A DNA stretch of 36,778 nt, from contig NZ_JAGQBE010000017.1 of the NCBI RefSeq assembly GCF_024345475.1, positions 1 to 36,778 on the forward strand, in the 5' to 3' direction. The translations under genes were made by a program, and so were the position numbers. Below, piece by piece: positions 4,341 through 24,346 of the stretch. Numbering within the stretch: the stretch's first letter is position 1; each line of letters opens with the position of its first letter. The stretch comes from Cyanobium sp. T1B-Tous (GTDB lineage Bacteria > Cyanobacteriota > Cyanobacteriia > PCC-6307 > Cyanobiaceae). The notes beneath the pieces were generated by a model. That model did not search any database. It had not been told where the DNA came from and was given only the letters and a program-made list of their open reading frames with translations.

Positions 4341-4367
4341 GGATTCTGTACAGCCTGTACGGAATTC
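4341..4367. repeat. Dispersed palindromic hairpin, copy 1 of 3
   Basis: The arms 4341-4351 and 4357-4367 form an 11-bp stem (one mismatch and one G-U) around the 5-nt loop AGCCT. The core TCTGTACAGCCTGTACGGA (4345-4363) recurs at 10456-10474 and 24313-24331. It begins 25 nt beyond the stop of the minus-strand gene at 4393, the last gene of the ergothioneine operon. There is no T-tract on either strand, so it is not a canonical intrinsic terminator. Confidence 0.85.
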
Positions 4368-4392
4368 AGGAGCCAGCCCCGTAAGCGCCTCG

Positions 4393-4863
4393 CTAGCGCT
4401 GCTGCCGGCGCAGCTGTTCTAGGGCCTGCTCGGCTTCGAAGGCGGCCCAGTCCTGCTCGAGGCTCGAGGCCCGGGGCGGCCTTGGCCGGTTCTCCAGCTC
4501 GCGCAGGTCACGCTCCACTGCCGCGAAGCTCACGCCCAGTTCGCCCAGCTGTTGCCAGCGTTGGCGGCCCTGCTCCATCAGACCTTGCTGGTGGGCCTCG
4601 GCGCGCTCGGCCAGGGTGGTGGCACCGGCGGCCCGGGCCTTGACCACCCGCTCCTGCCAGCGCCGAATCTCGTCGGCCAGTTGCAGCAGGGCCTGGCGCT
4701 CCTGTTCGGCCTGCCGTTGCAACTGGCGTCGCTGCCCCACCAGCCGGGCCTGGCGATCGCGTGCCCCCTGCTCCTCCAGCAGGGCCTCCTGGCTGGGGTT
4801 GGCGGCCAGGAAGGCGGCCAGTTGCTGCTCCAGCCGCGCCTCCAGTTCGTCGAGCCAACTCAC
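4393..4863 (-). CDS. Hercynine metabolism protein, coiled-coil (egt operon accessory)
   Basis: 156 residues, strongly charged and Gln/Glu/Arg-rich, almost all predicted helical. Long heptad-like stretches (LEARLEQQLAAFLAANP, then RQARLVGQRRQLQRQAEQER and QALLQLADEIRRWQERVVKA) suggest an extended coiled coil, somewhat like PspA-type proteins. There is no signal peptide or membrane helix. It is the last gene of egtB-egtD-small protein-this gene, and its GTG start overlaps the TGA of the preceding gene (GTGA, 4860-4863), so translation is probably coupled. From memory, proteins of this kind beside egtD in cyanobacteria carry the family name 'hercynine metabolism protein', given from genomic context; the molecular role is not known to me. 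Confidence 0.8.
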   Translation of the reverse strand: MSWLDELEARLEQQLAAFLAANPSQEALLEEQGARDRQARLVGQRRQLQRQAEQERQALLQLADEIRRWQERVVKARAAGATTLAERAEAHQQGLMEQGRQRWQQLGELGVSFAAVERDLRELENRPRPPRASSLEQDWAAFEAEQALEQLRRQQR

Positions 4864-5096
4864 GGGGCGGGCTGTCCGGCGGGGCTGGTGATCAACGGCG
4901 CTTCAATCTCTTGCTGCAGCGGGGTGATCGCGGCTTCGCGGGAGCGCAGTAGCAGTTGGGTGAGCCGGGCGACGGCCCCTTCGCCCAAATCCTGGTCGCC
5001 GATCCGGTCAAAGGCGTTGCGGTACAGCTCCTCAAGCTCGGCGATCAGGCCCTCCCGCATCTGGCGCATGGCGGCCCGTTGTTCCTCACGACCCAT
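4860..5096 (-). CDS. Hercynine metabolism small protein
   Basis: 78 residues from ATG 5094-5096, preceded by a good Shine-Dalgarno (AGGAG, 6 nt spacing). An open frame extends further upstream but lies opposite the conserved egtD C-terminus, so I take the SD-supported ATG. The sequence (MGREEQRAAMRQMREGLIAE, ELEELYRNAFDRIGDQDL) is helical and acidic, with no membrane segment or cofactor motif. It sits 17 nt after egtD and overlaps the next gene by 4 nt. Small proteins at this position in cyanobacterial egt loci are named 'hercynine metabolism small protein' by context only. A partner or regulator of EgtB/EgtD is an inference. Confidence 0.8.
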   Translation of the reverse strand: MGREEQRAAMRQMREGLIAELEELYRNAFDRIGDQDLGEGAVARLTQLLLRSREAAITPLQQEIEAPLITSPAGQPAP

Positions 5097-22748: not shown

Positions 22749-24186
22749 CGGCGACGCTGTCGCTGCGGCCATAGCGGTCTTCGAAGCGCACGATGTCGTC
22801 TTCGCCCAGGTAGGGCCCGCTCTGCACTTCGATCAGTTCCACCGGGATTTTGCCGGGGTTGGAGAGGCGGTGGCGGCAGCCCAGGGGGATGTAGGTGCTC
22901 TGGTTTTCGCCCACCAGCTCCTGGTGCCCGTCCTTGTCCACCACCGCGGTGCCCTGCACCACGATCCAGTGCTCGGCGCGGTGGTGGTGCATCTGCAGCG
23001 ACAGGCTGGCGCCGGGGTTGACCACGATCCGCTTGACCTGCCAGCGCTCCCCCTCGGTGACGCCGTCGTAGGAGCCCCAGGGGCGGTAGATCTTGCGGTG
23101 GGCCTTGCTTTCGGGTGCGCCCTCCTCCTCCAGCAGCCCGACGATGCGCTTCACGTCCTGGGCCCGGTCGCGGTGGGCCACCAGCACCACGTCGTCCGTT
23201 TCCACCACCACCAGATCCTCCACGCCCAGACCCACCACCAGGCGGTGTTCGCTGCGCAGATAGCAGTTGCGAGCGTCCTCATGGATCACCCGGCCCCGCA
23301 GCACGTTGCCCTGGGCGTCCTGATCGGCCGTTTCCCACAGGGCGCTCCAGCTGCCCACATCGCTCCAGCCCGCCTCCAGGGGCAGCACGGCGCCGCGGTC
23401 GGTGCGCTCCATCACGGCCACGTCGAGGGCCACGTTCGGGCAGCCGGCAAAGGCTTCCCGCTCCAGCCGCAGGAAATCCAGATCGGCGCTGTCCTGTTCC
23501 AGGGCGGCCCGGCAGGCGCTCACCACCTCTGGGGCCAACCGCTCCAGCTCCGCCAGGATGGCGCTGGCCTTGAACAGGAACATGCCGCTGTTCCAGGTGA
23601 AGCGGCCGGTGGCCAGGAAGGCTTCGGCGGTGGCCCGATCGGGCTTTTCCACAAACCGGGCGATCGGCACCGGGGCGCTGGCCGCTGCCAATGCCTGGGC
23701 CGCCTCGATGTAGCCGTAGCCCGTCTCCGGGGCCGTGGGCACGATCCCGAAGGTCACCAGCTGGCCGGCCTCGGCCGCCGCTGCTCCAGCGATGACGGTG
23801 GCGCGGAAGGCCGCCGCATCCCGGATCACATGGTCGGCCGCCAGCACCAGCAGCAGCGGATCGTTGCCCTGGGCGGTGGCCTGCAGGGCCGCCACCGCCA
23901 CCGCCGGGGCGGTGTTGCGGCCGATCGGCTCCAGCAGGATGGCGGCCGGCTCCACGCCGATCTGGCGCATCTGCTCCGCCACGATGAAGCGGTGGTCTTC
24001 GTTGCAGATCAAAAGGGGTGGGGCCAGGCCCGGCAAGCCTTCCAGGCGCTGCTGGGTCTGTTGCAGCAGGGTGTCTTCGCCCCGGCCGGCCAGGGCCCAG
24101 TACTGCTTGGGGTAACTCGCCCGCGACAGCGGCCACAGCCGGGTGCCGGTGCCGCCGCACAGGATCACCGGTACAAGACTTGTCAT
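22735..24186 (-). CDS. manC: Mannose-1-phosphate guanylyltransferase / mannose-6-phosphate isomerase
   Basis: Makes GDP-mannose for capsule, O-antigen or glycan synthesis. The N-terminal nucleotidyltransferase carries PVILCGGTGTRLWPLSR, PKQYWAL, EPIGRNTAPAVAVAALQ, VLAADHVI and GWSDVGSWSALWE. The C-terminal cupin (type II phosphomannose isomerase) starts at YRPWGSYDGVTEGERWQVKR and has LQMHHHRAEHWIVVQGTA and PLGCRHRLSN. The 483 residues match the bifunctional family. The isomerase activity is assumed from the family. The start is ATG 24184-24186. A spacer of 195 nt separates it from rimM and contains palindrome copy 3. Confidence 0.93.
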   Translation of the reverse strand: MTSLVPVILCGGTGTRLWPLSRASYPKQYWALAGRGEDTLLQQTQQRLEGLPGLAPPLLICNEDHRFIVAEQMRQIGVEPAAILLEPIGRNTAPAVAVAALQATAQGNDPLLLVLAADHVIRDAAAFRATVIAGAAAAEAGQLVTFGIVPTAPETGYGYIEAAQALAAASAPVPIARFVEKPDRATAEAFLATGRFTWNSGMFLFKASAILAELERLAPEVVSACRAALEQDSADLDFLRLEREAFAGCPNVALDVAVMERTDRGAVLPLEAGWSDVGSWSALWETADQDAQGNVLRGRVIHEDARNCYLRSEHRLVVGLGVEDLVVVETDDVVLVAHRDRAQDVKRIVGLLEEEGAPESKAHRKIYRPWGSYDGVTEGERWQVKRIVVNPGASLSLQMHHHRAEHWIVVQGTAVVDKDGHQELVGENQSTYIPLGCRHRLSNPGKIPVELIEVQSGPYLGEDDIVRFEDRYGRSDSVAATRP

Positions 24187-24297
24187 CGCGCGGGGTGAAA
24201 GTGAGGCCTCACGCCATTCCAGCAGTTGAGTGCCCGGTTTGCCTCCGCTCAGGCTGCTGCTTGTTTTGTGTCCAACGCTGGTAGCTCAGGCGATGTG

Positions 24298-24346
24298 CCA
24301 ACCCTCCATGACTCTGTACGGGCTGTACGGAATCAAGGAGGGTTGG
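24298..24346. repeat. Dispersed palindromic hairpin, copy 3 of 3, with extended outer stem
   Basis: The inner core TCTGTACGGGCTGTACGGA (24313-24331) matches the copies at 4345 and 10456 with compensating loop changes. Here the hairpin is extended by a perfect 10-bp outer stem, CCAACCCTCC (24298-24307) with GGAGGGTTGG (24337-24346), giving a stem of ~20 bp around a 5-nt loop. It lies 35 nt beyond the rimM stop on the minus strand and 112 nt before the manC start. No T-tract follows. Confidence 0.85.

Follow-up and report, generated by a model that had tools for sequence, protein, structure and literature searches.

We found that three palindromes in a 36,778-nucleotide stretch of the Cyanobium sp. 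T1B-Tous genome belong to a larger family of short sites, and that these are probably the dispersed, operator-like DNA targets of an autoregulated protein in which a Phd/YefM domain is fused to a PIN domain; binding by this protein is predicted from the comparison of sequences. The stretch, hereafter the window, is contig C32 of an assembly of 2,712,772 bases in 122 contigs (labelled G000; other G-numbers denote compared genomes, L-numbers loci and g-numbers genera). The first-pass annotation of the window had described a family of three hairpins placed just after genes, and had offered a mobile element, an RNA hairpin or a DNA-binding palindrome as explanations. The family is not one of three, as the genome holds 23 matches within two mismatches, against 0 for a reversed-pattern control. 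The DNA-binding option is the one that gains support, from pairs of TGTACA hexamers like those of YefM, from an operator-like copy upstream of the Phd-PIN gene and from the co-occurrence of gene and sites.

The fixed part of the site consists of two GTAC cores 9 bp apart, each the centre of a TGTACA hexamer. Starting at the centre and moving towards either end, 167 sites give the consensus S-CTGTACAGAATYCNGGAS. In many sites one of the two hexamers is degenerate. The spacing also emerges when TGTACA pairs with a gap of 0-30 nt are sought without reference to the 9-bp pattern: the gap is exactly 3 nt in all ten pairs of G000 (three of which belong to a single array), in 5 of 7 in G103, in 1 of 3 in G151 and in 2 of 4 in G145, and no such pair was found in G059 or in G009, which lacks the Phd-PIN gene. 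Reversed controls of this search gave one pair in G103, one in G059 and none elsewhere. Beyond the core, the logo of the 167 sites has symmetric GGA(G/C) edges, and its outer positions 10-14, 16 and 18 pair above shuffled arms (z 3.5-7). Among ortholog pairs, an altered arm is restored in 27% of cases, compared with 12-17% for slid controls. The outer arms covary, modestly, and many copies have imperfect arms; template switching may perfect them.

The genome-wide search for the core that had been proposed at first pass did find further copies, in G000 and in its relatives. Within the genus, matches turn up in 13 of 16 genomes, with 0 to 23 in each genome (reversed controls 0 to 4), and at one mismatch the family yields them in 35 of its 201 genomes and in 8 of its 59 genera. 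The site counts of G004, G005 and G010-G013 allow two mismatches to a narrower pattern and those of the other genomes one mismatch; sites common to several genomes do not count as independent. Scanning named genomes for exact matches gave 46 stretches, 39 of which are in records of Cyanobium, Synechococcus, Aphanothece or Synechococcaceae; the remaining seven belong to scattered phyla or unnamed records and may be due to chance. As non-cyanobacterial or unnamed, six of the 46 loci were left out of the context analysis and seven out of the logo. HIP1 (GCGATCGC), which excerpts of PMC4390886 describe as a high-frequency palindrome over-represented in cyanobacteria, is likewise an over-represented cyanobacterial palindrome, but as far as those excerpts go it differs in its sequence and in its high frequency, the maximum here being 23 copies in any genome searched. 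A literature search at the level of titles and abstracts found nothing on this repeat.

The most elaborate site of G000 lies just upstream of the Phd-PIN gene and is built of four tandem 9-bp units, and most members of the genus have two to four such units upstream of the fusion gene. Among the 33 homologues found in 91 genomes, exact GTAC-N5-GTAC occurs upstream of 29, and G024, G105 and G127 have a form with one mismatch. G002 has no upstream site; its match to the gene is truncated to residues 114-263, without the Phd part. In 22 of the 26 cases measured, the upstream site lies 40-73 nt from the Phd motif. A place at the promoter of its own gene, the usual one for a Phd/YefM operator, is thus that of the upstream copies and not of the dispersed ones, the window's included.

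Gene and sites also occur together. In 57 genomes, picked with knowledge of their site counts but not of their gene status, 26 of the 27 gene carriers had sites, as did 4 of the 30 genomes that lack the gene. A prediction written beforehand held in 34 further genomes, where all six gene carriers had sites and 2 of the 28 others did; counted the other way, the gene was present in 3 of 3 genomes with two or more sites, in 3 of 5 with a single site and in none of the 26 without sites. Over all 91 genomes, sites are present in 32 of the 33 gene carriers and in 6 of the 58 other genomes (Fisher p 2e-17), or in 26 of 33 and 3 of 58 when two or more sites are required, neither comparison being corrected for relatedness. 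Five genera (g6, g10, g31, g45 and g59) include both gene states, and in each of them the sites track the gene, with the exception of G020. These comparisons support the view that the sites belong with the Phd-PIN gene.

In G000 the fusion gene (contig C24:14088-14876, locus L019:9589-10380) encodes 263 residues and lies between two genes that we take, from their sequences, to be cobH and holA. These neighbours are retained in all 20 gene-negative genomes checked, and remnants of the gene are found between them in G004 (55 residues) and G008 (24), two gene-less genomes still bearing sites; G196 also has a remnant (53 residues). The N-terminal Phd/YefM domain and the C-terminal VapC-like PIN domain (Pfam PhdYefM and PIN) share one open frame and are not separate antitoxin and toxin genes, and the Phd part is the most conserved region of the family. 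An AlphaFold model with a mean predicted local distance difference test score (pLDDT) of 75 matches VapC PIN structures (best E 9e-4) and, with 45% identity over 40 columns, the N-domain of VapB46 (PDB 6jqy; E 0.07). In three species the Phd-PIN gene has a second site in its own linker, where it encodes FVQPVQ (L153:1777, L154:1777 and L155:1777); the same linker peptide is kept in G000, G001, G003, G005 and G151, with no site listed there.

Excerpts of PMC7730913 and PMC4803016 describe E. coli YefM, a member of the Phd family, and enterococcal Axe as binding pairs of TGTACA-core palindromes. To the extent covered by these excerpts, the YefM-YoeB and Axe-Txe operators resemble the site described here in that paired TGTACA-core palindromes stand at the promoter of a Phd/YefM-domain gene; unlike them, the cyanobacterial system has up to four tandem units, an antitoxin fused to a PIN domain and, in G000, 22 further dispersed copies. 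The modelled protein is also likely to share a Phd-type N-domain and a VapC-fold PIN with VapBC modules whose antitoxin is of the Phd type, such as M. tuberculosis VapB46. It differs from them in being one fused chain, and perhaps in its PIN acidic residues. Since these are not kept throughout the family (they are not conserved across 14 aligned members, the catalytic residues having been assigned by eye), activity of the PIN domain is doubtful. The partner of VapB46 is presumably a PIN toxin, judging from its name, and a title-level literature search found no paper on VapB46 with an operator.

A number of observations weigh against assigning the sites to the Phd-PIN protein. The centre-to-centre spacing is 9 bp here and 12 bp in the YefM and Axe operators, in the same excerpts, and the covariation of the outer arms exceeds the needs of a plain binding site. 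Longer distances between upstream site and Phd motif are seen in G206 (115 nt), G006 (220 nt), G160 (241 nt) and G059 (418 nt), and G059 has 10 sites yet no exact TGTACA pair. The G000 protein (P0001) is below the Pfam curated cut-offs for both Phd and PIN; two of three relatives scanned are above the Phd cut-off, and none of the four proteins is above that for PIN. The gene is in two pieces in G165, and a stop falls within the G100 and G199 matches. As for co-occurrence, G020 has a partial gene match and no dispersed site. Genus g47 breaks the rule, in that G138 has the gene with one site while G095 and G168 have sites without a gene match; such gene-less sites number two in G095 and one each in G012, G033 and G168, and a gene remnant was looked for in G095 and G012 and not found. 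G004 carries 19 sites and no intact gene, many of the sites being in toxin-antitoxin cassette islands with duplicated flanks. The gene-less G009 has two matches at two mismatches and none at one, and counting it would bring the gene-less genomes with sites to 7 of 58. Finally, the 23 different flanking genes examined have no coherent shared function.

Most copies keep their place across species. With one matching flank taken as sufficient, 20 of the 23 sites in G000 have a counterpart at the matching place in another genome, two of the 20 (L012 and L019:2074) matching only island copies of G004, and 28 of 40 site groups span two or more genomes. One group lies within the ftsY linker, about 12-14 kb from dnaN. 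There 9 of 12 sequences read through the site in frame, encoding SVQPVQ, SVQAVQ, SVQPVR, SVQPVL or FVQSVR; of the other three, G007 has the palindrome, and in G002 and G006 it is missing. Because the linker around the site is otherwise divergent, and because the codon GTA, which the site needs twice, makes up only 5 of 764 Val codons in the genes of the window, the ftsY copy points to selection on the DNA. Genes were called by a codon-usage script, with rough starts; some ftsY copies were not called as inside a gene, and for L045 a clear ftsY frame exists only on the downstream side of the site. The site at L005:1501 (G000 C39:3199), 1.6 kb from dnaN, was found in G000 only. Five compared genomes have both of its flanks and no site, and G003 is without about 100 bp there; the empty-site alignments did not separate insertion from deletion.

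This conservation bears on the suggestion that the copies are repetitive extragenic palindromes (REPs), that is, short non-autonomous mobile elements spread by a transposase and lying after genes only incidentally. The presence of REPs is tied to one single-copy gene; that of the sites also tracks one gene, which is the Phd-PIN fusion instead. Like REPs, the sites are short, palindromic, repeated and mostly extragenic, their copy number varies between species, copies are locally duplicated in the islands of G004, and the dnaN-near copy, seen in G000 only among the genomes compared, falls within the segment missing from G003. However, most copies are matched in place across species, and the Y1 domain of a REP-associated transposase (RAYT) was not found in four site-rich genomes, G000, G001, G003 and G007; 8 of 38 genomes do have it, including the site-rich G014, G015 and G004. 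The flank logo is without the GTAG/CGTC tag expected at the foot of a REP hairpin (tags named in the title of PMC3733652), and the 23 copies of G000 are few beside the number usual for REPs, over 100 per genome in the excerpts of PMC2817692. We regard a mobile element of this kind as highly improbable.

After orthologs were collapsed, 39 groups of sites were distributed as 20 in tandem gaps, 10 in convergent gaps, 3 in divergent gaps and 6 inside genes, where 20.1, 4.4 and 8.4 were expected for the three intergenic classes (p 0.005). A 3' end adjoins 30 of the 33 intergenic groups, against about 24.6 expected, at a median distance of 61.5 nt. The preference for 3' ends is real but moderate, and divergent gaps are under-used. 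The fixed position relative to genes that had been read from the window holds to the extent of this preference and no further, as copies also lie inside ftsY and in divergent gaps. The flanking genes are diverse and include smpB, rimM, a DUF218 gene, arfB, mazG and a GntR regulator. Two conserved sites stand at the 3' ends of ribosome-rescue genes, smpB (window 10456-10474) and arfB (L007:1501-1519). A promoter regulon was also considered, and was rejected on the grounds that the flanking genes examined have no common function and divergent gaps are under-used.

The placement near 3' ends, with convergent gaps enriched and divergent ones depleted, is what would be expected of RNA hairpins at the ends of mRNAs, acting in termination, processing or stability and perhaps as a substrate of the PIN nuclease. 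The stable folds and the pairing of the outer arms above the shuffled control (z up to 7) also agree with such hairpins. The choice of mismatches does not: on the transcribed strand of 68 tandem-gap sites (69 if non-cyanobacterial and unnamed loci are kept), G-U and C-A are about equally common, at 22 and 21 in the core and 37 and 41 in the arms. Testing the stems for compensatory changes, as had been advised, thus gave a mixed result, with modest covariation of the outer arms and no favouring of G-U over C-A. Copies within ftsY and in divergent gaps, the tandem 9-bp units at the operator and the lack of a T-tract after the window copies speak against hairpins as well; no Rfam family was found at the window sites, and a terminator scan of window 3000-13000 listed neither copy 1 nor copy 2. 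An RNA element at 3' ends is, in our judgement, very unlikely.

In the window itself the 19-nt core is confined to the three reported positions even when 3 mismatches are allowed, and shuffles give a mean of 0.01; the three palindromes are real and beyond chance. RNA folds of the minus strand beat shuffles for copies 1, 2 and 3 (z -3.0, -4.2 and -6.2). Their 11-bp stems are not all perfect, however, since T-G on the plus strand of copies 1 and 3 leaves a C-A mismatch on the minus strand, the one transcribed, and copy 3 has one further non-Watson-Crick position. Copy 3 does have the perfect 10-bp outer stem ascribed to it, and no T-tract follows any of the three copies, as judged by eye. The distances of 25, 38 and 35 nt given earlier from stop codon to palindrome agree with ours once the arms are counted; with the 19-bp core as reference point they become 29, 42 and 50 nt. 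A position after minus-strand stops describes the copies in part: only copy 2 sits between two 3' ends, and copies 1 and 3 are in tandem gaps and so also upstream of starts. That all three share an orientation carries no information, because a palindrome has no polarity. The copies, their neighbours and the RNA features of the window are listed in Table 1.

Table 1. Palindromes, adjoining genes and RNA features of the window (positions 1 to 36,778).
Feature	Position	Strand	Context
Palindrome copy 1	4336..4372, core 4345-4363	none	Between EgtBD-associated gene and DUF218/ElyC-like gene, both minus; matches in G001, G003, G015 and in L062 and L076 (metagenome genomes)
Palindrome copy 2	10447..10483, core 10456-10474	none	Exact TGTACA pair; between convergent 3' ends of protein-kinase-domain gene and smpB; matches in G001, G015; site missing in L059 and L073 (more distant loci)
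Palindrome copy 3	24297..24346, core 24313-24331	none	Between rimM and mannose-1-phosphate guanylyltransferase gene; matches in G001, G003; missing in G015
DUF218 (ElyC-like) gene	3484..4299	-	Start 45 nt from copy 1
Hercynine-metabolism protein (TIGR04375)	4393..4863	-	Stop 29 nt from copy 1 core
Protein-kinase-domain gene	8362..10368	+	Convergent with smpB
smpB	10517..11014	-	Stop 42 nt from copy 2 core
Mannose-1-phosphate guanylyltransferase/mannose-6-phosphate isomerase	22735..24168	-	Called start 144 nt from copy 3
rimM	24382..25011	-	Stop 50 nt from copy 3 core
Thiamine pyrophosphate (TPP) riboswitch	15083-15200	+	Rfam
RNase P RNA	25958-26399	-	Rfam
tRNA	26423-26496	+	Rfam

In other species, six loci (L046, L052, L054, L059, L064 and L073) carry a site where window 15050-15070 would be, with the end of a gene on one side and the TPP riboswitch position on the other. 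The outer arms of this site vary among species and are mostly still complementary.

With dnaN assumed to mark the origin, the chromosome half that has it at its centre holds 18 of the 19 sites of G004 and 16 of the 19 of G015 (p 4e-4 and 0.015, respectively, after collapsing to 20-kb clusters). The sites may thus lean toward the origin, but the bias in these two closed genomes is suggestive only, because the gene is lost from G004 and the clusters of that genome belong to toxin-antitoxin and insertion-sequence islands whose flanks are duplicated. In L091 and L093 of G004 and L089 of G006, palindromes occur around small toxin-antitoxin genes (PIN, Phd and Uma2-like, named by eye), about 0.5-1.2 kb apart, like cassette boundaries. 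A general role as cassette boundaries was rejected: the sites flank toxin-antitoxin genes in the islands of G004 and G006, and the window copies do not.

The same skew toward dnaN could be expected of parS-like sites, clustered near the origin and serving a segregation or nucleoid protein unrelated to Phd-PIN. We find this barely credible, as 166 of 201 relatives are without any site, the G004 clusters are accessory islands, and both the operator and the co-occurrence evidence favour Phd-PIN. The genomes with a ParB_N domain, G145 and, weakly, G133, do not include G000 or any genome with nine or more sites. Of the 38 picocyanobacterial genomes scanned, these two were the only ones to yield the domain.

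If the palindromes are operator-like sites of the Phd-PIN fusion, a Phd-domain dimer would sit on each hexamer and neighbouring dimers would bind cooperatively. The array at the gene's own promoter would lead to autorepression as in YefM-YoeB, and the protein would also occupy the dispersed sites, mostly past 3' ends. What the dispersed sites are for is the weakest step; tentatively, we would see them as a chromosomal reservoir and as bridging or roadblock points, which seems the likeliest of their possible roles, and not as the promoters of an ordinary regulon. DnaA offers a parallel, being titrated by boxes that lie away from its own promoter. By analogy, Phd-PIN might repress its own gene and be titrated by up to about twenty place-conserved, origin-biased sites, which would couple its synthesis, or else the folding of the origin half, to replication, and an addiction-module protein would have turned into a chromosome-wide site binder in bacteria where searches for ParB were mostly negative; we consider this extension quite unlikely.

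Altogether, the family is a real and mostly place-conserved set of DNA sites that appears to work like a dispersed collection of YefM/Phd operators. It falls outside the REP elements, and also outside the classical YefM operators, because spacing and gene structure differ. Antitoxins are usually viewed as local repressors of their own operon. Their autoregulation is described in excerpts of PMC4803016, and a title-level literature search found nothing relevant on chromatin immunoprecipitation sequencing of antitoxins. The present comparison connects a protein that fuses antitoxin and PIN domains with a network of about twenty sites at most, which are largely present or absent together with its gene. 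An unnamed repeat of Cyanobium-like genomes thereby gains a probable binding protein, and how the DNA-binding domain of a selfish module becomes a chromosome-wide protein would be testable in cyanobacteria.

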